The position numbers and the translations under genes were made by a program. From positions 1-41,215 of the IMG/VR virus record IMGVR_UViG_3300021093_003887: a stretch of DNA of 41,215 nucleotides, one strand, 5' to 3'. Of the stretch, positions 1 to 18,780 are shown in pieces. The DNA is from a virus. A model generated the notes under the pieces. The model was not told the origin of the DNA. It ran no database searches and saw only the letters and a program-made list of their open reading frames with translations. The first letter of the stretch is position 1, and each line of letters begins with the position of its first letter.

Positions 1-80
1 AAATAGGGTCGATTGCTTAAAATTTCATTTATTAACTTATTTTTATCGTATTCATAGAATAGTTTTTGGTATTTTATCAT
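1..80 (-). CDS. N-terminal fragment of a leftward gene, unknown function
   Basis: An open frame reads leftward from an ATG whose complement lies at 78-80 and stays open for all 26 codons to the window edge. It begins M-I-K-Y-Q-K-L-F-Y-E-Y-D and has the mixed, A/T-ending codon use of the other island genes. The gene is cut off at position 1, so length and family cannot be judged. It is divergent from the tail-fibre gene at 224. A possible ribosome site (AGGAAA) lies rather far upstream of the ATG, so the start is tentative. Confidence 0.45.
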   Translation of the reverse strand, partial: MIKYQKLFYEYDKNKLINEILSNRPY

Positions 81-186
81 GGTCAAAAGCAATAATTTCC
101 TAATCATATAACGTTTATTTAAAAAAATAAGTATCGTAGTGATAAAAATTCTTAGTATTATTGACTGCAGTAATTTAGAACTAAAC

Positions 187-194
187 AATAAATA
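187..194 (+). promoter_or_regulatory. T4-type late promoter box (AATAAATA)
   Basis: The octamer AATAAATA differs from the T4 late consensus TATAAATA at one base. Transcription would start about 6 nt after its last A, near 200. That leaves a leader of about 24 nt holding a TAGGAG ribosome site before the ATG at 224, which suits late expression of a tail-fibre gene. Confidence 0.5.
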
Positions 195-223
195 CATGGA
201 TTAGCAATCTTAGGAGTCAAAAC

Positions 224-1915: not shown

Positions 1916-1968
1916 CACTGTAATTTGCTGAATTATATTCATTCTTAAGAAATTCAAAAAAAATTTCC

Positions 1969-1976
1969 TATAAATA
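1969..1976 (+). promoter_or_regulatory. T4-type late promoter box, perfect TATAAATA
   Basis: This is an exact match to the T4 late promoter consensus. The start codon at 1981 is only 5 nt after the last A, so the predicted start site (about 1982) falls on the start codon and the transcript would be essentially leaderless. No ribosome site is visible before the ATG. Confidence 0.65.
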
Positions 1977-1980
1977 TCGG

Positions 1981-3252
1981 ATGGAACTACCTACAAACCG
2001 ATTTTATAAAGTCAAAGATAAAATATTTCATAATAAAATCGAAGCGATTTTATATGCAAATAAAAGCAAAGAAGACGTCACATGGCATTTTTATCAAGAA
2101 ATTTTTGATAAAGTAAATTGGTTAATCGAACCAGATCTCGGGTTAGATGAACTTTATGCAAAAAGAGCGGCCCAGATTAGAGATCAGTATGATTATATAG
2201 TTATATTGTGCAGCGGAGGAGCTGATAGTACAAATGTTGTAAAAAGTTTTATTAATAACGATATATTTCCTGACGAAATAATTGCATCGGCTCCGTTAGA
2301 AGGTTTGAATAACTACAATTTCAATGATACAGACAGTAGCCATTATAATACTATGTCTGAAACAAAATTTGCTCAACTACCGTTAATCAATGATATATCT
2401 CAAAAATATCCCAATATACGAATAACATTGCATGATTATTTCAAAGACATTTTAGATTATAAACCTGAAGAATGGCTGTATTTGTGTGAAGATTGGGTCC
2501 ATCCTTCGAGCTTGTCGAGGTATAGATTTGAAAGGCATAAACATCTTAAAAATTTAGCTGAATCGGGTAAGAAAATAGCATTTGTTTATGGTATAGACAA
2601 ACCAATTTTAGTCGTCGGCAAAAACTACGAATCGCTAACGGTTAGTTTTTCAGATTTAACAGTTAATGTACAAAGACCGCCATTCAATGAAAACTATCCC
2701 AATGTAGATAACGTTCTTTTTTATTGGACAGCTGATTTGCCCGAATTAATGGTTAAACAAGCGCATGTTTTAGGTAAATGGATTTTTCAAAAAGAAAATT
2801 GGTACGCTCTGCGTTACCTAACTGTCTACGATAGGGCTATGAAAACAAGTTATGTCGACAACAGGATGAGACATAGCAAATACGAAAGAGCTATTGTTCC
2901 TTGCATATATCCGAACACTTACCGTAAAGTTTTTCAGGCTGAAAAACCATCTAGTCTATTTCTAGGAGAACATGATTTCTGGTTTTACAAATTACATAAA
3001 GATACGACTTCGTATCAGATGATGCTGTCAGATTCAGTTAATTTTCTAAATAAAATAGACTACAAATACCTTAATAGACAAAAATCCGGATTGGTCACGT
3101 ACCATAACACCTATAGTTTAGGACCATTAAAAAAATTTTGTACAGCTAGCGAAACTTTAAAATCAATTATAAATTTAGAAACTTTTTTTGGAAAAAAATT
3201 AAGCGACACCAAGATTCCAGAAAATTTTATAGACCTTTATTTCGGAATGTAA
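1981..3252 (+). CDS. PP-loop (asparagine-synthase-like) ATP pyrophosphatase, 423 aa
   Basis: The signature S-G-G-A-D-S at residues 78-83 is the pyrophosphate-binding PP-loop (SGGxDS) of N-type ATP pyrophosphatases, placed after a beta-strand (YIVIL) as in asparagine synthetase, QueC and ThiI relatives. Such enzymes adenylate a carboxyl or carbonyl group for amide or thio-group formation. There is no N-terminal Cys glutaminase domain, so ammonia or another amine would have to come from elsewhere. The long C-terminal part (about 230-423) is not recognised. It is the first gene of the A+T-rich island, has no visible ribosome site, sits directly on a late promoter box, and converges with the cupin gene with a 16-nt overlap of stops. 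The substrate is unknown. Confidence 0.65.
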   Translation: MELPTNRFYKVKDKIFHNKIEAILYANKSKEDVTWHFYQEIFDKVNWLIEPDLGLDELYAKRAAQIRDQYDYIVILCSGGADSTNVVKSFINNDIFPDEIIASAPLEGLNNYNFNDTDSSHYNTMSETKFAQLPLINDISQKYPNIRITLHDYFKDILDYKPEEWLYLCEDWVHPSSLSRYRFERHKHLKNLAESGKKIAFVYGIDKPILVVGKNYESLTVSFSDLTVNVQRPPFNENYPNVDNVLFYWTADLPELMVKQAHVLGKWIFQKENWYALRYLTVYDRAMKTSYVDNRMRHSKYERAIVPCIYPNTYRKVFQAEKPSSLFLGEHDFWFYKLHKDTTSYQMMLSDSVNFLNKIDYKYLNRQKSGLVTYHNTYSLGPLKKFCTASETLKSIINLETFFGKKLSDTKIPENFIDLYFGM

Positions 3253-3860
3253 GTTCTGCTTTTCATAGGATTATATTCGTCTGTGGGACCGTCATCACTA
3301 TCCGGATGAAAAGCAATTAAACTCATATCTGATTCATTAGTAATGAACCTATGCGATTCAAATCTATTTAAAATAAAACAATCACCTATGTTAAGTTCCT
3401 GTGATCGATCGTTAAATTCTGCTACACCAGATCCTGAAATTATCATTCCTATTCTTATACTAGGATGAACATGAAATGTTTGTTTGATAAATTTTGGAAA
3501 ATACAAATAATTTATACAAGGATCACCGTTCCTGCAAGGAGAAACTAGATTAGAATTAGAACATCCATCTATGTAACTTAAATTCCCAGGTAATCCCGGA
3601 TTAATTAAACAAATATATTGATCAGGAAAGTTATATCCAAATAAATCTATAACTATTCCGTGGCCTACTATTTCAAACTCGACGTTTACTGACGCTGCAA
3701 AAACTCCAGAAAATTTAAATTTTTCTGATTTTAAATCACCATTACACATGATAAATCGAGTGGTTTCTTTACTGGCAAATGATCGATTGCCATCTACTTT
3801 ACTGACATAAATTCTATGTCTATCGTTATGCACAAAATCATCATTTATTAACTTGAACAT
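3237..3860 (-). CDS. Cupin-domain protein, 207 aa
   Basis: A C-terminal cupin barrel is visible at about residues 115-190: motif 1 has H130-x-H132 followed by the Gly-rich turn G-S-G, and motif 2 has the I-G-D turn at 158-160 with H170. The three histidines could bind a metal; the usual motif-1 Glu is not obvious. The N-terminal 110 residues have no recognised motif and contain several Cys (around 100-115). Cupins of this kind are dioxygenases, isomerases or sugar- or metabolite-binding proteins. An AAAGGA ribosome site lies upstream of the ATG. It converges with the PP-loop gene on its left and diverges from the gene at 3937. Confidence 0.65.
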   Translation of the reverse strand: MFKLINDDFVHNDRHRIYVSKVDGNRSFASKETTRFIMCNGDLKSEKFKFSGVFAASVNVEFEIVGHGIVIDLFGYNFPDQYICLINPGLPGNLSYIDGCSNSNLVSPCRNGDPCINYLYFPKFIKQTFHVHPSIRIGMIISGSGVAEFNDRSQELNIGDCFILNRFESHRFITNESDMSLIAFHPDSDDGPTDEYNPMKSRTYIPK

Positions 3861-3900
3861 AACTAATATCCTTTAAGTAATTTCATAATCGTACTTATAT

Positions 3901-3908
3901 GATAAATA
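3901..3908 (+). promoter_or_regulatory. T4-type late promoter box (GATAAATA)
   Basis: GATAAATA matches the late consensus at 7 of 8 bases. The predicted start near 3914 gives a leader of about 23 nt with an AAAAAGGG ribosome site before the ATG at 3937. Confidence 0.5.
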
Positions 3909-3936
3909 CTTTTATATCTTCAAAAAAGGGCTAAAA

Positions 3937-4311
3937 ATGGAAATTGAAAAAGAAATAGAATGTACCAGAGAATCTATTGAAATTCCATGGTTTTTCGATT
4001 ATATAAGAGACAATAAAGAAAAATTTGTCGATATTTTCTCTTATACAGAAGAAACTTTTATTATTCCTGGCGATATCTTAATAGAAAATAATACAAGCGG
4101 AAATGGATTAGTTCAGAATAAAAAAATATATTTTAAAAATTACAATGTTTTTGACAGATGGCAGAATGATCCAACTTTATTATTAATTCAAGAAGAAAAT
4201 AAAAAATATAATGAAGAGAACGGGATAATAATGAATTTTATGCGTATAAAGGATTTAGTAACAGATATCGTTTTTGTGTCAAGATCTTCCGATTCTAATG
4301 ATCCTGAATAG
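3937..4311 (+). CDS. Hypothetical protein, 124 aa
   Basis: I do not recognise this protein. It is acidic, rich in Glu, Asp, Asn and Ile, with no signal peptide or membrane segment and no Cys pair or His motif that suggests an enzyme. A ribosome site (AAAAAGGG) and a late promoter box support it as a real gene. It converges with the GNAT gene and their ends overlap by 17 nt. Confidence 0.6.
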   Translation: MEIEKEIECTRESIEIPWFFDYIRDNKEKFVDIFSYTEETFIIPGDILIENNTSGNGLVQNKKIYFKNYNVFDRWQNDPTLLLIQEENKKYNEENGIIMNFMRIKDLVTDIVFVSRSSDSNDPE

Positions 4312-4750
4312 TCTGATTAACATTCTTGTAAACTATGGTCATCAAAGATTCGTATCCGACCGATTTTGAAATTTTGTCGATCATTAGTTTGTTTTGTAAA
4401 TGTATAGATGAATATATTCTATTTTTCGATAGGTTAATCGCTACGTGATTTAAATATTCATGCATAACTTTGTATAATCCTTTCTTCCTGTGATTTTTTT
4501 CAACAAATGCTATATTAATCCAAATAGCATTTTTATATTTAAACTCGTCATAAAAAATAGATGCAGCTCTTTCTTCTGAGTTTTCAAATATGATAGCTCC
4601 TGTCGCTCTTGGTGGAACATGGTTTATCATTTGATATCCTTCATTTTTGTATTTTTCATGGATAGATTCATAATATAAATTTAGATTGTCATCAATTTCT
4701 TGATACCAATTTAAATTGAAATTCATTAAAGAAATAAAAGTATCTGGCAT
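4295..4750 (-). CDS. GNAT-family N-acetyltransferase, 151 aa
   Basis: The C-terminal half (about residues 78-145) has the GNAT layout: a beta-strand W-I-N-I-A-F-V, then the acetyl-CoA pyrophosphate-binding stretch E-K-N-H-R-K-K-G-L-Y (the R/Q-x-x-G-x-G/A-type loop) at the head of a helix, then the final strand and helix ending K-S-V-G-Y-E-S-L. Members transfer an acyl group from CoA to an amine of a small molecule, peptide or lipid precursor. The substrate cannot be told. The loop is degenerate (K-K-G-L-Y). It diverges from the PP-loop gene at 4784, and its own promoter is not clear. Confidence 0.6.
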   Translation of the reverse strand: MPDTFISLMNFNLNWYQEIDDNLNLYYESIHEKYKNEGYQMINHVPPRATGAIIFENSEERAASIFYDEFKYKNAIWINIAFVEKNHRKKGLYKVMHEYLNHVAINLSKNRIYSSIHLQNKLMIDKISKSVGYESLMTIVYKNVNQTIQDH

Positions 4751-4753
4751 GTT

Positions 4754-4761
4754 TATAAATA
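4754..4761 (+). promoter_or_regulatory. T4-type late promoter box, perfect TATAAATA
   Basis: Exact late consensus. The predicted start at about 4767 leaves a leader of about 17 nt with no ribosome-binding site before the ATG at 4784. It would drive the overlapping gene run 4784-9580. Confidence 0.6.
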
Positions 4762-4783
4762 TTCCGTAAATTACTTATCTATT

Positions 4784-5671
4784 ATGATCACACCGAGATA
4801 CAAAAATTACTACACTATCCAAGGTACCGGAATAAATTTTAATTTAAACATATCAAAATGTTCTCGTGCGGTAGGTACATACCAAGAAGAGTTAATTAAT
4901 AACGCGATCTTTCTAAAAGAAAATACAAAGAAAGACATTTATGTATTCTATAGTGGGGGATTAGATAGCGAATACATAATTAAGATCTTTCTTTCTCAAA
5001 AAATTAAAATAACACCAATTATCGTTTCATTAGAACCAAATTATAATTCGTTTGATATTTCATACGCTATAGATTTTTGCAAATACAACGATTTAAAACC
5101 TATTATAATAAATTTTGATTTCGATAACTTTGTAACTTCGGGTGAGTTTCTTGAAGTGGCTCGATCTGCCAATTGCATTGTGTATCAATACCCGGTATTC
5201 TTAAAACTATCAAAAACGTTGGACGGTACTATAATATTTGGTAGCGATCAACCCCATCTTTGTAAAGATGATAACTCTGATACTTGGTATTTTGACGAAA
5301 GAGAAAGGATAGTATCAGTTTGGTATAATTGGTATAAAAACCAAAATTTAGACGGAACCCCATCATTTTTAAATTACAATCCCGAAACATTGTTATCATT
5401 TCTATATGAACCAAGAATAAAAGATCTTGTGTCTAATAAAATTAAAGGCAGAAAAGGTACTAGTTCTAGTAAATTAATGATTTATGATAGACATTTTAAA
5501 GATATGCGGTCAAGAAGCAAATATGATGGTTTCGAAATTATACGAACATCTAAAATTTTTAGTCATCCCGATATTCAAATGATCAGAACTGATCCTATGG
5601 ATTATTCTATACCCCACAATGGGTATTTTAAAATATCTTATAATTCATTGTTAAAAAAATTAACTCAATGA
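4784..5671 (+). CDS. PP-loop (asparagine-synthase-like) ATPase, copy A, 295 aa
   Basis: The PP-loop S-G-G-L-D-S is at residues 57-62, after a hydrophobic strand (IYVFY), as in the synthetase domain of asparagine synthetases. There is no glutaminase domain. The N-terminal G-I-N-F segment, the spacing to the PP-loop and the C-terminal (Y/V)-x-I-(S/K)-Y-(N/D)-x-L-(L/I)-K motif resemble the gene at 15158, so the two look like diverged paralogues. The protein probably activates a carboxylate for amide formation. It heads a run of five genes whose stops and starts overlap or abut (to 9580), suggesting one transcript from the late box at 4754. Confidence 0.65.
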   Translation: MITPRYKNYYTIQGTGINFNLNISKCSRAVGTYQEELINNAIFLKENTKKDIYVFYSGGLDSEYIIKIFLSQKIKITPIIVSLEPNYNSFDISYAIDFCKYNDLKPIIINFDFDNFVTSGEFLEVARSANCIVYQYPVFLKLSKTLDGTIIFGSDQPHLCKDDNSDTWYFDERERIVSVWYNWYKNQNLDGTPSFLNYNPETLLSFLYEPRIKDLVSNKIKGRKGTSSSKLMIYDRHFKDMRSRSKYDGFEIIRTSKIFSHPDIQMIRTDPMDYSIPHNGYFKISYNSLLKKLTQ

Positions 5672-6531
5672 AACATAAAATTTTTATAACAGAAATTCCG
5701 AAAAAGTTTACAGTATGGCAGTGGATAATGAAAACCACCGACATTAAAAAATTAATGTCAACTATAGTGTCGCCAGTAAAAACATATACGATTTTAGATC
5801 TTATACACAATATAGATATTAAAGGTCTGACCAAAACTACAACAAAAATTATTGATACATTTGGATACCAAGGATGGAAGAACAATGTAGGAGAAGATCA
5901 AGCCTACGGGGGATTAAGCTTAACTTATAATCCCGAGTACCGTGATATCTCAAATGAGAATAGTCAAACTCTTGGGACATATCGCAATCAGAAAACAGAA
6001 TATTTCTTTGATCAAACCCATAATTTCAATGACTTACAAAATACGTATTATGATACATATGGGTTTAGAAAATTATCTCCCTGCGCAGAACTATTAGACG
6101 CATTTCTTTTAGATTTTGATAGAACGTTAATCAGAAGTAGGATAGCCATATTAAATTCTCAACATTTAGATCCAACAACTATAAATTCCTGGGGGTGGCA
6201 CAGAGATGAATCTGTTTTTGAAAATATACGAATTAACATACCTATCCAAACTGACAATAATTATCTTTTTCAACTATTAGGAAAATCGACTCTACATTTA
6301 AAATATGGACACATGTATTCGTGGGATACCAACGTTCCCCACAGAGTATTTCCTTATATAAATTCGATAAAAAATAGAATACATATAGTTTTAGGATTTA
6401 GCCCATGGTTCGATTACAATCCTTTAGATCAATGCTGGTGCAGCAATGAATTCTATGGTAAAATACACCCGTTCGAAATGCTTATTTCGGGTTTAATAAA
6501 TAAAAAGATAACAGGTGCAAATTATATATGA
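5668..6531 (+). CDS. Aspartyl/asparaginyl beta-hydroxylase-like 2OG-Fe(II) oxygenase, 287 aa
   Basis: The iron-binding facial triad is visible: H178-R-D180 in the strand W-G-W-H-R-D-E, and H225 in V-P-H-R-V, followed by R237, which fits the residue that holds 2-oxoglutarate. The order and spacing match the AspH-like 2OG oxygenase superfamily, whose members hydroxylate Asp/Asn side chains or, as in OlsC, the acyl chain of ornithine lipids. The N-terminal 150 residues are unrecognised. The ATG overlaps the stop of the PP-loop gene by 4 nt (ATGA), and the next gene overlaps by 4 nt, so translation is probably coupled. Direct neighbours downstream are two fatty-acid desaturases. Confidence 0.7.
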   Translation: MKHKIFITEIPKKFTVWQWIMKTTDIKKLMSTIVSPVKTYTILDLIHNIDIKGLTKTTTKIIDTFGYQGWKNNVGEDQAYGGLSLTYNPEYRDISNENSQTLGTYRNQKTEYFFDQTHNFNDLQNTYYDTYGFRKLSPCAELLDAFLLDFDRTLIRSRIAILNSQHLDPTTINSWGWHRDESVFENIRINIPIQTDNNYLFQLLGKSTLHLKYGHMYSWDTNVPHRVFPYINSIKNRIHIVLGFSPWFDYNPLDQCWCSNEFYGKIHPFEMLISGLINKKITGANYI

Positions 6532-7283
6532 AACTATTTTCAGCTTCGGCTATATCTTTATCTATAATACAAATAATTTCTACAATTGGAGCTATAATTG
6601 GGCTATGGGTGTTTAGTTTTGACTATCTGTCTATTATAGTTATTCTCGTATCATACTATCTATATAGTGGTATCGGAGTGAGTATGATGCTACACCGTTT
6701 TTACGCACACAAAAGTTTTGAATTTAAATATCCCATTTTAAAATATGTGTTTACCTGGTTCGCTTTAATGTCTGGACGAGGAAGTATTATAGGTTGGGTT
6801 CATGTACATCGAGAACATCATGCATTTTCTGACACTGAAAAAGATCCTCATTCTCCTAGTATAAAAGGATGGCGGGTGCTTTTTCCGCATTTGATGGATT
6901 ACGGTAAAAAAATAAATGTAAGACTGGTAAGGGATTTACTTAATAAAAAACAAATATATATTAATGACTATTATATGTTGCTAGTATTATCTTGTGTCTC
7001 TATTTTGATAATCATCGATCCTTGGATAGCATATTTTTGTTGGTTTGTCCCGGTATCAATTACTCATTTTGTTTTAAACACATTCATTTATTTTGGTCAT
7101 AATTTAGGGTATACTAATCATAAGTATAAAGATAATAGCAAAAACCTTTGGGTATATGGCATATTGCTCTGGGGCGAAGGTTGGCATAATAATCATCATT
7201 CGAATGCCAAAAATTGGAATATGCAAGAGAAATGGTGGGAATTAGATCTGATAGCCCCCCTTATATACTTGGTAAAAAAATGA
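6528..7283 (+). CDS. Membrane di-iron fatty-acid desaturase 1, 251 aa
   Basis: All three histidine boxes of acyl-CoA/acyl-lipid desaturases are present: H56-R-F-Y-A-H61, H94-R-E-H-H98 and H220-N-N-H-H224, plus the conserved D-P-H-S-P after box 2 and G-E-G-W before box 3. Hydrophobic stretches at about 8-50, 70-90, 150-175 and 178-190 fit the four-helix membrane fold of the delta-9-type family. At 251 residues it is a compact member. It would introduce a double bond into an acyl chain, needing O2 and electrons. It overlaps the hydroxylase upstream and the second desaturase downstream by 4 nt each. Confidence 0.9.
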   Translation: MKLFSASAISLSIIQIISTIGAIIGLWVFSFDYLSIIVILVSYYLYSGIGVSMMLHRFYAHKSFEFKYPILKYVFTWFALMSGRGSIIGWVHVHREHHAFSDTEKDPHSPSIKGWRVLFPHLMDYGKKINVRLVRDLLNKKQIYINDYYMLLVLSCVSILIIIDPWIAYFCWFVPVSITHFVLNTFIYFGHNLGYTNHKYKDNSKNLWVYGILLWGEGWHNNHHSNAKNWNMQEKWWELDLIAPLIYLVKK

Positions 7284-8053
7284 AAAATATATTTTCTAGT
7301 AATACTTTAGGAGTCCAAATATTCGCTATCATAAGCATAATCGGCACAATTATAGGAATTTACAGTCATGGATTAGACTATTTTGCTCTATTACTTATTG
7401 TTATTGGATATTTCTTATATGGATGTCTAGGAATAGTGGTCACATTCCACAGAAATCTCACCCATAATAGCTACGAGACTACTCCTATAATAAAAAATTT
7501 ATTTTCACTACTGGGATGCTTCGGTAACACAGGTAGCCCATTAGCATGGACTGCTATCCATATCAATCATCATTTAAAAAGTGATAAAGTAACCGATCCT
7601 CATAGTCCTAAATACAGAGGATACAAAATATTTTCATTATCGTATGATGCACGGGTGGATGGTAACACTAAATGGAAAATGAGAAAACTTATAACAGATA
7701 GATATCAACAATTTTTACATCGTTACTATTTTATAATTTTATTTTTATGGAGCCTAATCCTATTCATATTAGGGGGATCATATCTGATGATATTTTTGCA
7801 CTGGGCTCCTGCCTTGCTTACAGGGATCATGAGTAATGTTGTAAACTACATAGGACATAAACCTAATTGGTTTGGAAGTTATCGTCGATATAATTTGAAA
7901 GACCAGAGCACAAACAATTGGCTATGGGCGATTCCTAGCTGGGGAGAAACATGGCACAACAATCATCATAGGCATCCTAAGAACTACAGTTGCGGTGAAT
8001 CATGGTGGGAAATAGATGTATCAGCGATGATAATAAAAATAATTAAAATTTAA
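7280..8053 (+). CDS. Membrane di-iron fatty-acid desaturase 2, 257 aa
   Basis: A second desaturase of the same family: H57-R-N-L-T-H62, H94-I-N-H-H98 and H226-N-N-H-H230, with D-P-H-S-P and W-G-E-T-W in the expected places. I chose the ATG at 7280, which overlaps the previous stop (ATGA), over an upstream in-frame ATG at 7214 that would read through the end of desaturase 1. It is clearly related to desaturase 1 but well diverged, so the tandem pair is not a fresh duplication and may act at different positions or on different acyl chains. The radical SAM gene follows 3 nt downstream. Confidence 0.9.
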   Translation: MKNIFSSNTLGVQIFAIISIIGTIIGIYSHGLDYFALLLIVIGYFLYGCLGIVVTFHRNLTHNSYETTPIIKNLFSLLGCFGNTGSPLAWTAIHINHHLKSDKVTDPHSPKYRGYKIFSLSYDARVDGNTKWKMRKLITDRYQQFLHRYYFIILFLWSLILFILGGSYLMIFLHWAPALLTGIMSNVVNYIGHKPNWFGSYRRYNLKDQSTNNWLWAIPSWGETWHNNHHRHPKNYSCGESWWEIDVSAMIIKIIKI

Positions 8054-8056
8054 TCA

Positions 8057-9580: not shown

Positions 9581-10088
9581 GATCAGGATCACATTTTACA
9601 GTGAGGCTTATTCTTGGAGAAAAATTTTCGTCCATTATTACCTGATGAGGTGTCATTACTTTAAATACAGTTGGCATATCCAGTACAAAATTATCCACTT
9701 CAACTGCAGATTCTTGATCACATAAAATAAATGGAAGTTTATTTTTTTGTACTATTTTAACATTAGGTCTGGCTTTAAAAAATTTGGTTTGACTATGCTC
9801 ACAGTTTAAAATCGGAATATTAATCCTGGTCTTATATTCATAGGTATCAATATGAACTAGACTATCACCATTTTTTATTGTTTTATATAAATTAAATCTA
9901 ACCGGAGTCAAATTTAATTTTAAGAAAAAGTATAGAGTATCTGCACAGTGATCAATAACACTCTGTTTGTTTAATGGTATAAATCCGATAGTTTTATCAT
10001 TTAAAATATCAGTATGGACTTTGAGATAGGTTAAAAGCTCAGATTGAATACTTTTTATATTCTTTATATTAATTTTTTTATAATTCAT
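9558..10088 (-). CDS. 2OG-Fe(II) oxygenase-like protein, 176 aa
   Basis: The double-stranded beta-helix signature is visible: H79-x-D81 in V-H-I-D-T, then H148 in T-P-H-Q-V and R159 in S-P-R-I-S, the expected order of iron ligands and 2-oxoglutarate-binding Arg. An R-I-N-I-P-I strand follows the first motif, as in the small phage oxygenases nearby. It would hydroxylate an unknown substrate. It is the second gene of a leftward pair with 10078-10623, overlapping it by 11 nt, and converges with the radical SAM gene at 8057. The paired gene has the same fold and similar motifs, so an old duplication is likely. Confidence 0.6.
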   Translation of the reverse strand: MNYKKINIKNIKSIQSELLTYLKVHTDILNDKTIGFIPLNKQSVIDHCADTLYFFLKLNLTPVRFNLYKTIKNGDSLVHIDTYEYKTRINIPILNCEHSQTKFFKARPNVKIVQKNKLPFILCDQESAVEVDNFVLDMPTVFKVMTPHQVIMDENFSPRISLTVKCDPDPIFLLRD

Positions 10089-10623
10089 CTAGCATGTGGA
10101 CAGGGTCATTTTTAAATTCTAGTGCCATAGTTATTCTCGGAGTATTTTTTTCATTCATGATAGTGTTATGAGGTACGCTTGTCCTCATTATCCATGGACC
10201 TTTAATAACAATACTATCTCTAGCCCTGTAATTATTTCCTGGTTTGTAGCTTTTTACCCCAGAATCGGGATTTATCCATTCAACTAGATCTGATGATTCA
10301 TAAAATATTGTTCTTGTATTATGTGCATTTAACAAAGGAATCAATACTTTGGCAGATGGAGGAGATATGTCTGTATGTACAGGAGAATGCTTATTATTGT
10401 ACATAATAAAAATTGATGCGAAATAAGGCTCCATATTCAGTTTAGAAAATGCATCTAGTATAATCGGACAACAATTTAATAATTTATTAAAATTTAAAAT
10501 ATAATAACTTGCGTTATTCAATCTTCTATTATATATTTCGTCTATAGATTTAACAAAATTAAGAGATTTTTCGGTTATTTCTTCAATGTTTGGGATCTCT
10601 AAATACTTGTAATATTTGCTCAT
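10078..10623 (-). CDS. 2OG-Fe(II) oxygenase-like protein, 181 aa
   Basis: H83-T-D85 in S-P-V-H-T-D-I, H152 in S-V-P-H-N-T and R163 in T-P-R-I-T form the usual H-x-D...H...R pattern of 2OG-dependent oxygenases, in a chain of normal length for the small phage-type members. A possible AAGGA sits about 14 nt before the ATG. It diverges from the AspH-like gene at 10662; its start codon complement overlaps a late promoter box for the other strand. It leads the leftward pair with the gene at 9558. The substrate is unknown. Confidence 0.6.
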   Translation of the reverse strand: MSKYYKYLEIPNIEEITEKSLNFVKSIDEIYNRRLNNASYYILNFNKLLNCCPIILDAFSKLNMEPYFASIFIMYNNKHSPVHTDISPPSAKVLIPLLNAHNTRTIFYESSDLVEWINPDSGVKSYKPGNNYRARDSIVIKGPWIMRTSVPHNTIMNEKNTPRITMALEFKNDPVHMLDEL

Positions 10624-10628
10624 AAATA
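10621..10628 (+). promoter_or_regulatory. T4-type late promoter box (CATAAATA)
   Basis: A 7 of 8 match to the late consensus. The predicted start near 10634 leaves a leader of about 28 nt, without a clear ribosome site, before the ATG at 10662. Its first three bases are also the complement of the start codon of the leftward gene. Confidence 0.45.
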
Positions 10629-10661
10629 TAATTTATCCTTATAATTTTAATAATATGTAAA

Positions 10662-11156
10662 ATGATAAAAATTTTAAAAAACTTAGATAAAACAGCCATT
10701 GAAGAAATTCTACGTACTTACCAGACATTAGATTCACAAATCCAATGGCACAGTTCTGTAAACTCGAAACAAACAAGCGTACAATTCAAAAAAGGAGAAG
10801 ATCATTGGGCAAGTTCTGTTGGTCGGCAAACAGGGGCAGAAACTGACTACGATCAATTAAATCCTTTTTTTAAGAATACAATTTTTGAAGATATCATAAC
10901 AGAATATAATTTATATAGAAGTAGACTTATGTGGGTTTTACCTTATAGATGTTATAGTTTTCATAGAGATAGACTTCCTCGAATACATGTTCCTATCATA
11001 ACTAATGAAGAATGTTATTTTTTATTTAGGACCGGGGAAATAAGGCATTTAACTGTAGATAAAATATGGCTAACTGATACCAGGCTAGCACACACATTTA
11101 TTAATACTTCTGACTATGAAAGATTGCATTTTGTTGGTGTAACTGCTGATCAATAA
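10662..11156 (+). CDS. Small AspH-like 2OG-Fe(II) oxygenase, 164 aa
   Basis: H101-R-D103 in the strand C-Y-S-F-H-R-D, a following R-I-H-V-P-I strand, H144 in R-L-A-H-T-F and R154 match the AspH-like pattern also seen in the gene at 5668, with only a short N-terminal extension. It would couple 2-oxoglutarate decarboxylation to hydroxylation of an unknown substrate. It stands alone between two leftward genes, converging with the SGNH hydrolase (1 nt apart). No good ribosome site is seen before the ATG. Confidence 0.65.
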   Translation: MIKILKNLDKTAIEEILRTYQTLDSQIQWHSSVNSKQTSVQFKKGEDHWASSVGRQTGAETDYDQLNPFFKNTIFEDIITEYNLYRSRLMWVLPYRCYSFHRDRLPRIHVPIITNEECYFLFRTGEIRHLTVDKIWLTDTRLAHTFINTSDYERLHFVGVTADQ

Positions 11157-11157
11157 T

Positions 11158-11880
11158 CTAATCTAACGTGCTTAATATTTTATCATGCACACACTTATGG
11201 GTATGCTTCCCAGGATGACTTAAATCTCTCGCAAAATCATTGTCTGCCCATATTTCATTTGTAAAAACTTCATTAGAATTGTAAGTCTTAAATTTAATTC
11301 GATATGAATTGCATATATTTTCAATCGCTAATATGTTCTTCTTTTGATTGAGGAAAGAATTATTATTGTTCAGCAACCACGTTTTATAAAATCCATTATT
11401 CAAATATTCCGATTTTTCGTGCCTAAAAAATAGCACATCTTCATCATCCCAGAGTTCTAATCTAGTTGGTTCTGGACTAAGACAAATTACTATCTTTGGT
11501 AATAACTTCGCTATGTAATAATATGCAAGTCTAAATGAAGTATCATTAGAACTTGCACCCAGAGCTAGATTATAATATTTCATATTTAGGGATTTAGATA
11601 ACTGATAAGCATATACTTCTTCTAATTGTAATCCGGTTCCAAATGTTAAACTACAGCCCAAAAATAATATTGAATTTCTATCGTGAGAGAACTCGTCTGA
11701 TCGAAATCCTTCATTATTAAAATTATAATAAATTTTTTTTTCTAGCCAACCGTTGACCGCTAATAAATTTCTATTTTTTTGCAAATTACGAACGAATCTT
11801 TCCTTCGTATCAAATAATTCCCATTCTTGTGTGGTCCCAGAAAAAATTTTCCAAGGATGACTATTTAACGGAATTTCCAT
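11158..11880 (-). CDS. SGNH/GDSL-family hydrolase, 240 aa
   Basis: Block I G-C-S-L-T-F-G with nucleophile S77 follows the strand I-L-F-L, G-A-S-S-N-D at about 108-113 fits blocks II/III, and D219-L-S-H222 near the C-terminus is the D-x-x-H of block V. This gives a complete Ser-Asp-His triad of SGNH esterases and acyltransferases, which act on acyl or acetyl esters of lipids and polysaccharides. There is no signal peptide, so it probably acts in the cytoplasm. The ATG lies exactly at the start site predicted from the late box at 11886-11893, so the message would be leaderless. Confidence 0.7.
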   Translation of the reverse strand: MEIPLNSHPWKIFSGTTQEWELFDTKERFVRNLQKNRNLLAVNGWLEKKIYYNFNNEGFRSDEFSHDRNSILFLGCSLTFGTGLQLEEVYAYQLSKSLNMKYYNLALGASSNDTSFRLAYYYIAKLLPKIVICLSPEPTRLELWDDEDVLFFRHEKSEYLNNGFYKTWLLNNNNSFLNQKKNILAIENICNSYRIKFKTYNSNEVFTNEIWADNDFARDLSHPGKHTHKCVHDKILSTLD

Positions 11881-11885
11881 AAGCG

Positions 11886-11893
11886 TATTTATG
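11886..11893 (-). promoter_or_regulatory. Leftward T4-type late promoter box (CATAAATA)
   Basis: On the minus strand this reads CATAAATA. Six nt beyond its last A is the A of the start codon at 11880, giving a predicted leaderless transcript for the SGNH hydrolase. It is back to back with the rightward box at 11907. Confidence 0.6.
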
Positions 11894-11906
11894 GTCGAAG
11901 TTTATC

Positions 11907-11914
11907 AATAAATA
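11907..11914 (+). promoter_or_regulatory. Rightward T4-type late promoter box (AATAAATA)
   Basis: AATAAATA ends at 11914 and the A of the next start codon is at 11920, exactly 6 nt on, again predicting a leaderless transcript. It likely drives the run 11920-15146. Confidence 0.6.
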
Positions 11915-11919
11915 TAGTT

Positions 11920-12555
11920 ATGGACGATATTTTGTTCGCTAAAATCATTTTTCCAGATTTAAACAAAGAAAAATCTACATACGAAATTATGAAGATTGAT
12001 AAATCTTATTGGTTTTGGGATCCCTATAGAGCAACCAATATGCTTTCACTAATGACAAAAAATCCTGTCCCCGGACCATTTGGAACTAAAAATAATCTAC
12101 AAGGAGAATTTCAATGGTTGGCTTATACTCCCCCAGTGATAATAGATTGGTTTGAAACATACGTTTTTCCGTGGATGGGAACTAAAACCAGAATTATGGC
12201 ACTGCTTACAAACCAGAAATCTAAAAATTTAGAACATGTAGATTGTGATAAAAATTCGATCTTCACAAAACAACATAAATTTAGAATAGTTTTAAAAGGA
12301 AAAACAGAAACACTGTATTTTAAAACTGATAAGCATGATGTGTATGTTCCAAATATTACATCACCATTTTTAATGGACGGAAGTTGGCCTCACGGAATGA
12401 ATAACTTCGACGATGATTATAAGTTGACTATAGCAGCCGGAGCTCCTTGGGTGGGTAACGATTCATACACCAACATAGAAATTTTAATGAAGAGATCAGA
12501 ATTCGTTTTCCCAGAGGATTACAAAATTTATTTCAAAAAGGAATTTTCTACGTGA
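11920..12555 (+). CDS. Oxygenase-like beta-helix protein, 211 aa
   Basis: The arrangement H106-V-D108, a following F-R-I-V-L-K strand, then H158 in W-P-H-G-M and K168 resembles the small 2OG-Fe(II) oxygenases around it, with Lys in place of the usual Arg as a possible 2-oxoglutarate anchor. The N-terminal 100 residues are aromatic-rich (W-F-W-D, F-Q-W-L) and not recognised. It could equally be a metal-binding cupin-like protein without oxygenase activity. No ribosome site is present; the start codon coincides with the predicted transcription start. The stop overlaps the GTG of the next gene by 4 nt. Confidence 0.5.
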   Translation: MDDILFAKIIFPDLNKEKSTYEIMKIDKSYWFWDPYRATNMLSLMTKNPVPGPFGTKNNLQGEFQWLAYTPPVIIDWFETYVFPWMGTKTRIMALLTNQKSKNLEHVDCDKNSIFTKQHKFRIVLKGKTETLYFKTDKHDVYVPNITSPFLMDGSWPHGMNNFDDDYKLTIAAGAPWVGNDSYTNIEILMKRSEFVFPEDYKIYFKKEFST

Positions 12556-13220
12556 ATGATTTTATCTTAAAAACTTATGACAATTTAACGATCCAAGATA
12601 AAGAATTTTTTTTTAATTTTTGCCGAGATGCTTCGAAAGAAACGGAAAAATCGGCGTCTGTTAATATGTGGGCTAGAAATACCTTTGTTAAACCATGGAC
12701 TCTGGGATATCGATTAGAATCTACTAATGAATTTAAAGAACCGAATGGAAAATTTTATATTCTATACAATAACAACGAAGTAATTGGATGTAGCGGTATA
12801 CATGTAAGCGAATTTCATCCTTTGATATTTTCGGCTGGAGTAAGGACTTGGATCAAAAAAGAGTATAGGAATCAATCTATTAACAAAAAATATTTTTTCC
12901 CAGAACAACGATCTTGGGCTATAAAGAAAGAAGCAAAAATAATATTTCTGTCATTTAATGAGTATAATAAAAATTTAATACAGGTTTTTAAAAGAAATAG
13001 ATTAGGCGAAAATAAAGAAAGAGTTACAAATAGAAATAAAAATGACCTATTCAGTAATGGACTTAAAATAATCGATTTTCCGCTGATTATTAATCAAACA
13101 AAGCAATGGATATGTTACGAAATTATAGATGAAGATTTTGATTACGATTGGACTCGACTTGCGTACTCAGATGATAGAAAAGAACAAATTTATACAAAAG
13201 ATCTTTCAAAAAGATTTTAA
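12552..13220 (+). CDS. GNAT-like acyltransferase, 222 aa
   Basis: A central segment resembles the GNAT core: the strand F-Y-I-L-Y-N-N-N-E-V-I-G-C-S-G-I (about 72-87), the strand V-R-T-W-I followed by K-K-E-Y-R-N-Q-S-I at the acetyl-CoA loop position (about 98-112), and a helix-strand pair around I-I-F-L-S-F-N-E-Y-N. The consensus Gly of the CoA loop is not kept, so the activity is uncertain. I used the GTG at 12552, which overlaps the previous stop (GTGA), since the ATG 4 nt later is in another frame. The radical SAM gene follows after 2 nt. Confidence 0.5.
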   Translation: MNDFILKTYDNLTIQDKEFFFNFCRDASKETEKSASVNMWARNTFVKPWTLGYRLESTNEFKEPNGKFYILYNNNEVIGCSGIHVSEFHPLIFSAGVRTWIKKEYRNQSINKKYFFPEQRSWAIKKEAKIIFLSFNEYNKNLIQVFKRNRLGENKERVTNRNKNDLFSNGLKIIDFPLIINQTKQWICYEIIDEDFDYDWTRLAYSDDRKEQIYTKDLSKRF

Positions 13221-13222
13221 AA

Positions 13223-14710
13223 ATGGCAGAAATAGTATTGTTTACATGTATAGAAAGTGGAGGATTTTTCCGGAGTATCGGAGCTTATCAAATAGCTAAT
13301 GCGTTAAGACAACAAGGCTATACAGTACAGGTAGTTGATTGGTTATCTACTATTATTTCCAAAAATAATAGCATTTTCCTTAATATATTAGAAAAATATG
13401 TATCAAAAGATACCTTATGGATCGGGTTTAGCACTACTTTTTTCTTTCATAAACCTAAAAAGAATTCAAATAAAATTAATAAAATCGATGAAACATTTAA
13501 AAACAATATTTTTGATAACAAACAAATTACCGAGATTAAAGATTACGTTTATTCAATATCTCCAAAATGTAAATTTGTTCTAGGGGGCGGCAGAGCATAT
13601 ATAGAAGATACTTCCGGACTAATAGATGTTTTTATTTTAGGATATGCAGATCAATCAGTAATAGAATTCACCAGATTTTGTCAAAACAAAAATCCATTTT
13701 TCCAATATAATTTATCCAAAGGAAAAATGATAATAAACAATGATACAAAGGCAGTTAATTATGATTTTTCAAATTCCAAATTCAGTTGGCATGATTCGGA
13801 TCATATAAATTTTATGGAAGCTCTGCCAATAGAAATTTCTAGGGGATGTATATTCAACTGTAGTTATTGTTCGTATCCGTTAAACGGTAAAAAGAAATTA
13901 GATTATATTAAAAATCCGGAAATATTAACAGAACTATTTCTTTCAAATTACGAAAAATACCAGACTACAAATTATGTTTATTTAGACGATACACACAACG
14001 ACAGCACTGAGAAATTAGAACTACTATTTAATAAAGTTTATTCTAAATTACCGTTTAAAATTAAATTTTGTACCTACCTTAGATTAGACTTACTGAATGC
14101 TCATCCAGAAACTATTGAATTATTGTTATCAAGTGGATTAGTAAGTTGTTTTTTTGGCATAGAAAGTTTAAATTATGAATCTAACCGAGTTATCGGTAAA
14201 GGCATTAAACAAGATAAAATTATTTCCACTTTGCAAAAAATAAAAGACGTATGGAAAGAAGATGTTAGGACTGAGGGAGGATTCATAATAGGATTGCCAA
14301 ACGATTCTGTCGAATCAGTTAAATCATGGGTGTCTACTTTAGAAAATGAAAATTTATTACATAGTTATAGATTTCATTCTTTAGGAATTAATCAAGTTTT
14401 TAAACAGAAACCATGGTCAAGCAAATTTGATCAAGATCCTATAAAATATGGTTACAAAATGTTACCAAACAATCATTGGATTAATAATAAAGGTATGACG
14501 TCGTTTCAAGCATGGCAAATTTATATAGAATTAGAAAAAAGGCTAGGCAATAAACTTCCATGGACTGGTATTTTTGATTTCCATAATCTAGGTGCAAATT
14601 TTGAAGAATGTTTTGTCAGTGATAGAATAGAAATGTATAAAAAATATTATAACAATAAAATAGAACTATATAGTAGTTACTTAAGGAAACTGTTACATGA
14701 ACAAATTTAA
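13223..14710 (+). CDS. Radical SAM protein (B12-binding-like N-terminus), copy B, 495 aa
   Basis: C209-x3-C213-x2-C216 in R-G-C-I-F-N-C-S-Y-C carries the 4Fe-4S cluster that binds S-adenosylmethionine. The stretch through S-Y-P-L-N-G-K, the D-D-T-H/Y-N-D-S segment, the Y-S-K-L-x-F-K-I-K-F segment and G-I-E-S are shared almost position by position with the gene at 8057, so the two are clear paralogues. The N-terminus (A-N-A-L-R-Q-Q-G-Y-T-V-Q-V-V-D) looks like the cobalamin-binding Rossmann domain of class B enzymes. It sits in a run 11920-15146 and overlaps the DUF2061 gene by 14 nt. No ribosome site is visible. Confidence 0.8.
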   Translation: MAEIVLFTCIESGGFFRSIGAYQIANALRQQGYTVQVVDWLSTIISKNNSIFLNILEKYVSKDTLWIGFSTTFFFHKPKKNSNKINKIDETFKNNIFDNKQITEIKDYVYSISPKCKFVLGGGRAYIEDTSGLIDVFILGYADQSVIEFTRFCQNKNPFFQYNLSKGKMIINNDTKAVNYDFSNSKFSWHDSDHINFMEALPIEISRGCIFNCSYCSYPLNGKKKLDYIKNPEILTELFLSNYEKYQTTNYVYLDDTHNDSTEKLELLFNKVYSKLPFKIKFCTYLRLDLLNAHPETIELLLSSGLVSCFFGIESLNYESNRVIGKGIKQDKIISTLQKIKDVWKEDVRTEGGFIIGLPNDSVESVKSWVSTLENENLLHSYRFHSLGINQVFKQKPWSSKFDQDPIKYGYKMLPNNHWINNKGMTSFQAWQIYIELEKRLGNKLPWTGIFDFHNLGANFEECFVSDRIEMYKKYYNNKIELYSSYLRKLLHEQI

Positions 14711-15146
14711 AGAAAATCACTTGCGAACTATATCTAAGGTTATTTCTTGGAGAGTTCTTATAACAATCAGCCATATGGTTAATGCATTCATAGTAACAGG
14801 AAGTCTGCTAATGGGTGTTAAGATAGCAGGACTTGCCTTGGTAATTAACAGTGCTTTGTTCTGGATCCATGAACGTGCATGGAACATTTTTCAGTGGAAT
14901 CGTCGAGAGAACGAAAAATTAAATTTCGCAGAAGGCCATCCGAGATCTATTTCTAAAGTAGTATCTTGGAGAATTTTGATCACCGTAAGCAATTTCGTGA
15001 TTCCATTTGTCATGACCGGTAGTTGGGGACAGGCTGCGCTATTTGCGGGAATGGCTACTGTAGTCAATATCATTCTATATTGGAGCCATGAAAGGATTTG
15101 GAATCGCATAAAATGGGGGAAATCTGTAGAAACAAATATATCATAA
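14697..15146 (+). CDS. Tandem DUF2061 membrane protein, 149 aa
   Basis: Two homologous halves (about residues 7-66 and 77-136) each begin R-(T/S)-I-S-K-V-(I/V)-S-W-R and end W-(I/S)-H-E-R-x-W-N, the hallmarks of DUF2061. Each has two hydrophobic segments, so four membrane helices in all. The family's function is not established; it is often found with sulfur or lipid-related genes. An AAGGA site precedes the ATG, which overlaps the radical SAM gene by 14 nt, so the two are probably co-translated. Confidence 0.85.
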   Translation: MNKFKENHLRTISKVISWRVLITISHMVNAFIVTGSLLMGVKIAGLALVINSALFWIHERAWNIFQWNRRENEKLNFAEGHPRSISKVVSWRILITVSNFVIPFVMTGSWGQAALFAGMATVVNIILYWSHERIWNRIKWGKSVETNIS

Positions 15147-15149
15147 ATA
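15142..15149 (+). promoter_or_regulatory. T4-type late promoter box (CATAAATA)
   Basis: A 7 of 8 match overlapping the DUF2061 stop codon. The predicted start near 15155 is 3 nt before the ATG at 15158, so the leader would be almost absent. Confidence 0.45.
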
Positions 15150-15157
15150 TCATAAAA

Positions 15158-16090
15158 ATGAATGAAATAGTTGATTATGGCATTAATTTTGGTTTTGATA
15201 ATAATAAATTTTTTGTGGATTATATCTCGTGCGGGTCAGACATTGGAAATTATAGGGAAGAATTTAAAAAACGTGCAGTAGAATTATCTAAAGCAAGCAA
15301 AAAAATATTGTTAGGATTAAGTTCTGGGCTAGATAGTCAAGCAGTATTACATAGCTTTTTTGAGCAAGGCATTAAAATCGAATGTGCATTTTTATATCAA
15401 CCTAAATTTAATGAAATAGAATACAATCAATTAAAAATTGTTGCTAAAAAGTATAACATAAATCCTATTATTATAGAACTTGATCCTAATAACATTAAAG
15501 AAGAAATATTAGATCACTATAATCAAACAGGAATCCCTCCTAATCAACTGATACACAAAAAATTTCTACAACAATTACCAGAAGACTACGATTTTGTTCA
15601 AGGAGTACACGGTCCTGACATTTTTTATAGGAACAATACTTGGTATTCCCTAGATTGTGCAGATTCTATGGAAATTTCTAGGCTGAGAGGGTTCGGTATG
15701 CTGGAAAGGAAAGGAAAAATAATATGTTGGGAAAGGACTGGTTCTATATTATTAAGTATTTTAACAGATCATATTACTACATCATTTATGTATTCGTATA
15801 ACTATATCGCCAGTAACCATCTAAAAACTACAGGAAAAGAAATTAACTTTATGAAAGATCACTGGGATATCTACATCAAACCCTTTCTATATGGAAAATA
15901 TTGGAAAAATGAGTTAGAATATTTTCCTAAATATCAAGGGTGTGAAGGTATTGATTATGTCATAGACGGACCAAAACACAATTATAGGAAAAATCGTGTA
16001 GTTATAAAATACGATGCATTAATAAAACATCTTAAAAATCCTAAAGGAACAATTAAAAGAATTTATGAGTTTGAAGAAAATAAAAAATAA
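15158..16090 (+). CDS. PP-loop (asparagine-synthase-like) ATPase, copy B, 310 aa
   Basis: S55-S-G-L-D-S60 after the strand I-L-L-G-L is a PP-loop of the asparagine-synthetase type; the second residue is Ser instead of Gly (SSGLDS), as in some members. The layout matches copy A at 4784, including the N-terminal G-I-N-F and the C-terminal V-I-K-Y-D-A-L-I-K. No glutaminase domain is present. I chose the ATG at 15158 over an in-frame ATG at 15098 because the longer form would read far into the DUF2061 gene and its first 20 residues are not like copy A. It likely activates a carboxylate as AMP ester for amide formation. It is the last gene of the A+T-rich island. Confidence 0.65.
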   Translation: MNEIVDYGINFGFDNNKFFVDYISCGSDIGNYREEFKKRAVELSKASKKILLGLSSGLDSQAVLHSFFEQGIKIECAFLYQPKFNEIEYNQLKIVAKKYNINPIIIELDPNNIKEEILDHYNQTGIPPNQLIHKKFLQQLPEDYDFVQGVHGPDIFYRNNTWYSLDCADSMEISRLRGFGMLERKGKIICWERTGSILLSILTDHITTSFMYSYNYIASNHLKTTGKEINFMKDHWDIYIKPFLYGKYWKNELEYFPKYQGCEGIDYVIDGPKHNYRKNRVVIKYDALIKHLKNPKGTIKRIYEFEENKK

Positions 16091-16135
16091 CAATTTTCCA
16101 TTGATTTTTAACTTGACTGAATATAAACTAAAAAC

Positions 16136-16247
16136 GTGGTCGTGAGCAAATTGGCAAAGCTCCCGCTGGACCCATAGTCCAGAATGGGGACGGGACGATG
16201 AGTATAACTCGCAGTCTTTGTAGGTTCGAAACCTACCGGCCGCACCA
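16136..16247 (+). tRNA. tRNA-like gene, 112 nt, anticodon uncertain
   Basis: The ends form a 7-bp acceptor stem (16136-16142 with 16237-16243, including two G-U pairs), discriminator A and encoded CCA at 16245-16247. A 5-bp T-stem with loop TTCGAAA is perfect (GTAGG/CCTAC). A D-arm A-G-C/G-C-T with loop AAATTGGCAAA is normal. The middle is not: a stem CTGGA/TCCAG (16166-16170, 16178-16182) carries the loop CCCATAG, which would give anticodon CAT but lacks U33, four extra bases separate it from the D-stem, and about 37 nt lie between it and the T-stem, partly folding as GAG/CTC. An alternative outer stem TCCCG/CGGGA would present an ATGGGGA loop. The identity is therefore open. It lies where the A+T-rich island ends. 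Confidence 0.6.
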
Positions 16248-18749: not shown

Positions 18750-18751
18750 TA

Positions 18752-18780
18752 TTGACAGGTTTTTAAAGATCTCGTATAAT
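18752..18780 (+). promoter_or_regulatory. Consensus sigma70 promoter TTGACA-N17-TATAAT
   Basis: TTGACA at 18752-18757 and TATAAT at 18775-18780 are both perfect and separated by exactly 17 bp. Transcription would start near 18787, about 21 nt before the ATG at 18808. It begins a run of small genes and is likely an early promoter read by unmodified host polymerase. Confidence 0.85.

Follow-up and report, generated by a model that had tools for sequence, protein, structure and literature searches.

A recurrently linked set of ligase-like, desaturase, and oxygenase genes in a hypervariable A+T-rich phage island

A hypervariable host recognition cluster has been described in pelagimyophages and cyanomyophages, in an account whose accessible text lays stress on glycosyltransferases and lipopolysaccharide (LPS) genes (PMC7029224). 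Here we compare with it an A+T-rich block of enzyme genes, g01 to g18, at positions 1981 to 16090 of the IMG/VR virus record IMGVR_UViG_3300021093_003887; the window analyzed is the whole record, 41,215 bases. Like the block, the cluster is large and variable and, in the accessible parts of its descriptions (PMC7029224, PMC2984593), combines fiber genes with genes unrelated to fibers, including radical S-adenosylmethionine (SAM) cassettes. Freshwater members are said there to carry a stearoyl-CoA desaturase and a 2-oxoglutarate (2OG) oxygenase, as the island does. Unlike the cluster as portrayed in that text, the island is dominated by asparagine-synthetase-type ligases, several desaturases, and oxygenases. 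In T4-like phages the cluster lies between VrlC and gp14; the likeness seen here is one of content and of a fiber-like gene.

Other viral systems share single components. Desaturases from Arctic brine and Lake Baikal viruses (PMC7300359, PMC7678222) are likewise viral auxiliary genes; in the accessible text they are discussed by themselves, whereas here up to eight occur per record, beside ligases and oxygenases. Viral contigs of SUP05 (PMC4164917) carry a tctA domain and 2OG oxygenase genes, as these islands do; the part of that report available assigns tctA no role, and here TctC-like genes adjoin the ligase-like family PPb in 23 to 28 virus groups. The accessible text of a review (PMC12360287) mentions phage genomes with biosynthetic gene clusters; these have small-molecule genes on phages in common with the island, but no scaffold enzyme was found here among the Pfam-scanned proteins. 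Phage auxiliary genes are usually interpreted singly, and here linked pairs of ligase-like, carboxylate-binding, desaturase, and oxygenase genes recur. We place the island with the hypervariable islands already known from large tailed phages, from which this recurring linked enzyme content sets it apart. Our tentative reading, to which we give somewhat less than an even chance, is that it is a phage-maintained module for chemical tailoring, with carboxylates and acyl chains as its substrates, and that, judging from its motifs, it is probably expressed late with the fiber genes. If its enzymes do make one kind of product, phages possess chemistry of their own.

Composition, extent, and age of the island

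The G+C content of positions 1981 to 16090 is 0.302, against 0.442 in the core at 16289 to 40814 and 0.408 in the fiber gene at 224 to 1915. Mean G+C at third codon positions was 0.243 for the 18 island genes and 0.405 for 21 mechanically called core open reading frames (ORFs) (Mann-Whitney P = 2.3e-7). Tetranucleotide distances between 7-kb pieces were largest for the six island-core pairs (0.243 to 0.303), compared with 0.202 to 0.238 for three core-core pairs and 0.224 within the island. The A+T richness reported in the initial annotation is confirmed. That annotation counted 16 genes on both strands; there are 18, tightly packed, 13 on the plus and 5 on the minus strand, the majority enzyme-like. 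The classes it named are all present, namely three PP-loop proteins, two radical SAM proteins, two desaturases, a cupin-type protein, an SGNH-like protein, and two GNAT-like proteins, and its "four or five" oxygenases are five (g06, g10, g11, g12, and g14). Two genes, g03 and the DUF2061 gene g17, fall outside these enzyme classes.

The borders first proposed, a fiber gene and a tRNA-like gene, held less well. Longer contigs of the same virus were recognized by g01, g07, and g09 at 100% identity, and in one of them (locus L103, on a contig of 99,528 bases) G+C stays at 0.29 to 0.32 over 14 kb to the left of the window, beyond the fiber gene. The tail-fiber-like gene (224 to 1915, plus strand) therefore lies inside the island and is not its left border. 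At the right edge, the tRNA-like element (16136 to 16244, plus strand) has 33 extra bases before the T arm and scores 24.8 bits with Rfam RF00005, against a gathering score of 29; ARAGORN called no tRNA at this position. The block is the right part of an A+T-rich island of about 30 kb, wider than first described, and a repeat search within it revealed no element ends. By Pfam, its left arm encodes an AMP-binding enzyme (2.5e-19), a pair of radical SAM proteins carrying SPASM-type domains, and a 2OG-oxygenase-like protein scoring under its cutoff. By our home-made profiles it also holds two more PPb genes and NMO-, TctA-, TctB-, and TctC-like proteins.

Judged by its sequence, the virus is a large tailed phage with T4-type genes. 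Pieces of its large fiber gene (30934 to 38487) match cyanophage and pelagiphage fiber genes at 30 to 49% identity over 8 to 17% of the protein (best 20 of 107 records). A clamp-loader-like protein of the virus (L107, 10955 to 11875) has its nearest relatives, at 54%, in Pseudomonas jumbo phages of the PA5oct type among 2,610 matching records, which also take in many Escherichia and Synechococcus phages. With these affinities, we considered the label "T4-like" too narrow and dropped it.

In a related phage, G009 (125,502 bases), radical SAM, OG3, AspH, SGNH, OG23, and GNAT genes follow the order of g09 to g15, with one OG3 gene in place of two, and a contig near-identical to it (that of L006) adds both desaturases. 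Matches to G009 were found for 49 of the 179 ORFs of the focal virus. Identity was 46 to 67% for g11 to g15, 59% for g09, and 63 to 68% for three left-arm genes. Other genes matched over at least half their length showed 31 to 89%, leaving aside paralogue matches at 23 to 37%. Since the divergence of the block falls within the range of other genes, the block is old in the lineage, dating back at least to the divergence from G009, and a recent import is not needed to account for it. The island of G009, its first 20 kb, has a G+C content of 0.28 to 0.32, and another part of that phage, with structural genes (L290), is almost as low, at 0.28 to 0.34. Across viruses, island-type genes were lower in G+C than their neighbors in 55 of 60 groups, by 0.031 on average; these 60, of the 141 groups described below, each had at least five family hits and 4 kb of other genes.

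Linked recurrence of the enzyme families in other viruses

Searches with the radical SAM, desaturase, PPb, PPa, and TctA proteins, together with further pieces of some records, gave 233 loci in 141 non-redundant virus groups. The sample is enriched by its seeds, and group frequencies in it are not population frequencies; family labels are those of home-made profiles at E 1e-4. The radical SAM protein g09 had 302 relatives among viral contig stretches, of which 80 were kept. The PPb and PPa subsets yielded 72 and 24 loci, TctA and desaturase g07 17 each. As sole query, g01 returned four loci, every one of the focal virus. Half of the groups (70 of 141) carry PPb, and among these 42 have PPa, 28 desaturases, 22 radical SAM proteins, 21 NMO, and 25 to 32 TctC, depending on the score limit. 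Some recurring islands lie on contigs above 300 kb.

Several pairs of families adjoin more often than in any of 1,000 label shuffles: PPb-TctC in 28 groups (null mean, 11.0; maximum, 20), PPa-PPb in 27 (12.2; 21), fatty-acid hydroxylase-PPa in 14 (4.1; 9), and PPa-Rieske in 8 (1.5; 6). The known pair AhpC-AhpD stands out likewise (11 groups; null mean, 1.9). At strict scores, PPb-TctC was retained in 23 groups and PPa-PPb in 27. Same-strand neighbors mostly overlap, in 16 of 18 groups for PPa-PPb and 11 of 19 for PPb-TctC. Co-occurrence is also seen within the radical SAM-search loci alone (53 groups), where PPb occurs nine times with PPa and never without it (P = 5e-6) and GNAT6 eight times with a desaturase and never without one (P = 5e-5); PPb accompanies TctC in three groups, and TctC lacks PPb in two (P = 0.03). 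In 5 of the 70 groups with PPb, TctA is no more than three genes away from it. By a simple hydrophobicity rule, a signal-like start is present in 33 of 49 distinct TctC-like sequences and in all five of a second TctC family. Pfam supports these labels in relatives from other viruses (TctA, 4.8e-125; TctC, 1.8e-8; NMO, 3.7e-14), with one Pfam example each of Rieske, P450, fatty-acid hydroxylase, and NMO proteins in related loci. Proteins like g17, recognized by eye, are near PPb in 13 virus groups.

The enzyme combination thus recurs as linked genes, though reshuffled, and the island is lower in G+C than the core; the homologues are not scattered over unrelated contexts, nor is the composition core-like. 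Also near PPb, by eye, were DctP/TRAP-type binding-protein-like genes in nine virus groups (e.g., L251, 973 to 1914), with a signal-like start in 0 of 11, unlike most TctC-like proteins. Genes for GIY-YIG-like endonucleases, likewise identified by eye, were near PPb in six groups (e.g., L180, 13572 to 14258), and these endonucleases are a possible means of shuffling.

In tblastn searches of 50,697 deposited phage records, the three families tested (radical SAM, PPa, and PPb) had no match, the queries being g09, g01, a PPb relative, and a PPa relative. For the desaturase g08, two records of Acinetobacter phages matched, at 26.8%; NMO matched one record at 28%, and TctA matched seven at 31.5 to 37.0%, several of them short or bacterial-looking. 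The nearest viral models to g01 are uncharacterized proteins of uncultured Caudovirales phages, at up to 51% identity, so g01-like proteins have been deposited but left unnamed. A genome-contig search with the radical SAM alignment A3, run on a single 8-residue pattern, gave 41 loci, of which L122 to L125 alone cover most of the protein. L122 (PBPT01000016.1, 335 kb), labeled Candidatus Neomarinimicrobiota, holds a large island of the same families. Because this contig also carries a terminase, it is probably a jumbo phage binned with the bacterium, or possibly a prophage. In cellular genomes, the PPb profile matched 4 of 245 in the phylum of G024, one of them strongly (8.6e-30, with 3.9 kb of neighborhood visible), none of 395 in that of G273, and none of 7 further genomes. 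One weak match looks TilS-like, and the profile is thus able to cross-match. From the phyla searched, a restriction of PPb to viruses seems likely. The linked families were found nowhere described in the literature, coverage of which was thin for subscription journals.

Ligase folds, expression signals, and possible function

The PP-loop proteins are g01 (1981 to 3252, family PPb), g05 (4784 to 5671, family PPa), and g18 (15158 to 16090 from the first ATG, with the frame open from a TTG at 15098; PPa, as g05), all on the plus strand and all without a Pfam match above cutoff. AlphaFold2 models built from alignments of viral relatives (predicted local distance difference test score, 83.7 for g01 and 91.0 for g05) have folds resembling asparagine synthetase and, for g01, beta-lactam synthetase as well. 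With a second-look aligner, the g05 model matched asparagine synthetases at Z 14.0 to 14.8 across 251 to 262 residues, followed by beta-lactam synthetases (12.8 to 13.9), carbapenam synthetase (12.2 to 13.1), TsnB9 (11.0), and the remainder (at most 10.9). The g01 model matched Escherichia coli asparagine synthetase at 11.8, beta-lactam synthetase at 10.0 to 10.3, and nothing outside this group above 7.6. For both models, NAD synthetase and LarE ranked below the asparagine, beta-lactam, and carbapenam synthetases. An SGG-type motif (SGGADS in g01), as in asparagine synthetase B and these other synthetases, is found with a loose pattern in nearly all proteins of both families (PPa, 88 of 91; PPb, 102 of 105). 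With the best fold matches (Z 14.8 and 11.8), it marks a synthetase domain of the AsnB type in both families.

Unlike those synthetases, PPa and PPb proteins lack a glutaminase domain, and identity to them is about 10%. The PP-loop starts near residue 57 of the 295 in g05 and residue 78 of the 423 in g01, which leaves too little room for such a domain at the N terminus, and with starts called mechanically, a single PPa sequence among 91 and a single PPb sequence among 105 have a cysteine at position 2. Because asparagine and beta-lactam synthetases rank first in fold and the glutaminase part is missing, the models favor reading these proteins as amide ligases. The same ranking makes amide formation more probable than sulfur transfer. 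Beta-lactam and carbapenam synthetases form an intramolecular amide from an adenylated carboxylate, and the likeness of PPa to them (Z up to 13.9 and 13.1) is one of fold.

The sequence ATAAATA is, according to the accessible text of PMC2984593, the core that the T4 late promoter TATAAATA has in common with NATAAATA of cyanophage S-PM2. It occurs nine times in positions 1 to 16200. Eight copies lie within 45 bases before a same-strand start, and the ninth lies 8 bases before the first ATG of g18; the best of the other 20 arrangements of the same letters has three before starts. It is found at seven of the ten transcription-unit heads (the fiber gene, g01 to g05, and g11 to g14), 29 bases upstream in the case of the fiber gene. 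The longer TATAAATA stands on the plus strand at 1969 to 1976, 4 bases upstream of g01, and at 4754 to 4761, 22 bases upstream of the g05-g09 run, and CATAAATA at 15142 to 15149, 8 bases upstream of the g18 ATG. Window-wide, TATAAATA is no commoner than chance (3 found, 5.75 expected) and is telling only by position. In representative loci, ATAAATA occurs within 80 bases of 36.6% of 254 unit-starting island-family genes versus 23.1% of 502 others, where letter rearrangements average 8.2% and 5.9%, respectively. At g01, g13, and g14 the motif ends 4 to 5 bases before the start codon, tighter than usual for a promoter and leader, and some copies may therefore act otherwise than as promoters. Sigma-70 and terminator scans did no better than shuffles. 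All motif and gene-start results rest on mechanical ORF calls. Within the block, four-base overlaps join g05-g06, g06-g07, g07-g08, and g14-g15, and longer ones join g10-g11 (11 bases) and g16-g17 (14 bases).

We infer the activities that follow, as well as late expression, a common product, a target, and any benefit; what was observed is gene content, composition, the model folds of two ligases, conserved residues, gene overlaps, recurrence, and motifs. The initial annotation combined carboxylate activation with desaturation, hydroxylation, and acyl transfer, and this combination is upheld at the level of families, predicted folds, conserved residues, and linked recurrence. In a tailoring module, the glutaminase-less ligases (g01, g05, g18, and the two to their left) would adenylate carboxylates and couple them to amines, the AMP-binding ligase outside the window sharing in the activation. 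Desaturases g07 and g08 would introduce double bonds and the 2OG oxygenases hydroxyls, with radical SAM proteins and GNATs carrying out further modification; in the fuller island, capture or uptake of the carboxylate would fall to TctC/TctA-like proteins. The best defined of the island's enzymes are the membrane acyl desaturases, for which reason the likeliest target would be the acyl lipids or acyl amides in the host's envelope, perhaps changing the cell surface during infection. The block would probably build or alter a small molecule or membrane lipid during infection, and a product shared by its enzymes is plausible enough to merit a test. A more specific version, in our view unlikely, is a largely virus-restricted system of aquatic phages in which TctC-fed ligases join scavenged carboxylates to amines and desaturases and iron oxygenases then yield oxidized amide lipids or metabolites absent from the host.

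A number of observations weigh against such a module. Gene order and membership are reshuffled among viruses. Adjacency of PPa with radical SAM genes (149 of 1,000 shuffles) and of desaturases with PPa (973 of 1,000) was not above shuffles, and for 9 of the 27 groups with adjoining PPa and PPb, the two lie next to each other solely on opposite strands. TctC labels are partly weak (21 of 67 matches below 40 bits), and the TctC-like protein of the focal virus has no Pfam match. In G009, the contig of which ends inside the island, neither PPa nor PPb was seen. Plain Foldseek placed human asparagine synthetase (3.1e-6) and beta-lactam synthetase (6.0e-6) at the top for g05, with LarE (7.6e-6) and MnmA (2.2e-5) following closely, and gave no match for g01 at E 0.001. 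The PPa sequence profile ranked NAD synthetase (9e-8) and MnmA (6e-7) ahead of asparagine synthetase (0.023), and the PPb profile matched no solved structure at E 1. ATAAATA is missing from the heads of g02, g04, and g11. It occurs three times in the first 20 kb of G009 and three times in L103 positions 1 to 15000, two copies before genes in each, so that G009 and the left arm add no support to the promoter case. The GNAT and SGNH assignments rest on weak evidence. Pfam scans of the 18 window and 10 left-arm genes found no scaffold-making enzyme (nonribosomal peptide synthetase, polyketide synthase, or terpene synthase) or precursor of a ribosomally synthesized and posttranslationally modified peptide; small unmatched proteins, g03 among them, are left over. 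Confidence in the module was lowered slightly, and that in two of its rivals, a hot spot without a common product and nucleobase modification, was raised slightly, by what Foldseek gave for g05 and by the uncertainty over which kind of phage this is.

The first of these is a hypervariable hot spot of the host recognition cluster type, collecting independent auxiliary genes and small operons, and we regard it as a serious possibility that falls clearly short of even. Reshuffling fits it well, as do the expansion of paralogues (eight desaturases within one 49-kb record), the fiber gene inside the island, and the many further auxiliary genes recognized by eye in the focal virus. It also has a precedent in an island whose accessible description combines tail fibers with LPS-related genes and radical SAM cassettes (PMC7029224). 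Against it stand particular pairs that adjoin above label shuffles, the same-strand ones mostly overlapping, and the co-occurrence of families within the radical SAM-search loci alone. For the initial annotation, the outcome is that the observation was confirmed and the interpretation partly supported: the reshuffling, the richness in paralogues, the lack of a scaffold enzyme in the scanned proteins, and an age at least as great as the G009 split speak against taking a single acquired pathway as established.

Asparagine-synthetase folds also form isopeptide bonds in lasso peptides. The island enzymes could modify phage or host proteins such as tail fibers, by 2OG hydroxylation, radical SAM chemistry on peptides, isopeptide ligation, and N-acetylation. 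The fiber gene inside the island, which has the same ATAAATA motif, and the radical SAM/SPASM proteins of the left arm agree with this, but membrane acyl desaturases fit it poorly, as do the fatty-acid hydroxylase, Rieske, P450, and exported TctC-like proteins of related islands, and we consider it improbable. Least probable is nucleobase or tRNA modification or counter-defense, in which PP-loop thiolases or QueC-like enzymes would work alongside radical SAM proteins and GNATs. This reading could draw on the PPa profile matches to NAD synthetase, MnmA, TtuA, and QueC (9e-8 to 9e-4), the high Foldseek ranks of LarE and MnmA, and the 22 tRNA genes of the virus, but it runs against the second-look preference for asparagine synthetase and its kin over most of the length and leaves the desaturases without explanation.

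Remaining island genes and the wider genome

Catalytic-type residues are near-invariant among viral relatives of the desaturases, radical SAM proteins, and 2OG-type proteins. The membrane fatty-acid desaturases are g07 (6528 to 7283, plus strand; PF00487, 1.8e-15) and g08 (7280 to 8053, plus; PF00487, 2.5e-16). The nine histidines of the di-iron boxes are kept in 103 of 104 desaturase rows, and a solved acyl-CoA desaturase is recognized at 7.8e-36 by the profile of the g07 family. Both radical SAM genes, g09 (8057 to 9580; PF04055, 4.6e-16) and g16 (13223 to 14710; PF04055, 6.8e-13), are on the plus strand. For g09, the CX3CX2C cluster (C203, C207, and C210) is present in 94 of 94 rows. For a cobalamin domain, g09 has no Pfam B12-binding match, g16 reaches 17.2 bits against a cutoff of 32.1, and NCBIfam B12 radical SAM matches score far under their cutoffs.

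The oxygenase-like proteins were called on HxD...H...R, with Pfam in addition for g12 alone. The AspH-type protein g06 (5668 to 6531, plus), which has no Pfam match of its own, and the Asp/Asn beta-hydroxylase-like g12 (10662 to 11156, plus; PF05118, 2.2e-5, above cutoff) keep HxD, H, and R in 36 of 36 rows. For family OG3, comprising g10 (9558 to 10088) and g11 (10078 to 10623) on the minus strand, the facial triad and arginine are kept in 73 to 77 of 78 rows per residue. In g14 (11920 to 12555, plus; family OG23; DUF3823 at 0.096, below cutoff), only the triad, H106, D108, and H158, is recognized, in 8 of 8 rows.

Among the other genes, the cupin-type g02 (3237 to 3860, minus) matches AraC_binding above cutoff (1.3e-6) and Cupin_2 slightly below it (4.4e-6). 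The 124-residue g03 (3937 to 4311, plus) has no Pfam or PHROG match and fits the home-made profile F9. The GNAT-like g04 (4295 to 4750, minus) is weakly assigned, by profile GNAT26 and with no Pfam match. The second GNAT-like acyltransferase, g15 (12552 to 13220, plus), scores slightly below cutoff with Acetyltransf_1 (0.0011) and matches the PHROG 1249 acetyltransferase (4.8e-7). The SGNH-hydrolase-like g13 (11158 to 11880, minus) shows GCSL and DLSHPG motifs by eye and no Pfam match, and g17 (14697 to 15146, plus) is a DUF2061 membrane protein (PF09834, 3.9e-27).

Elsewhere in the virus, auxiliary genes named by eye in window positions 18066 to 30582 and in loci L104 to L106 are ThyX, KdsA-like, UV-endonuclease-like, IscU/IscA-like, superoxide-dismutase-like, COQ7-like, GroEL/DnaK-like, and isocitrate-lyase-like. 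The 22 tRNA genes and a transfer-messenger RNA lie in L103 (16813 to 19665), L104 (333 to 1952), and L105 (17325 to 17692). An additional desaturase-like gene of the same virus, with one stop inside in the search output, lies remote from the island (G002:C1, 97294 to 97977).

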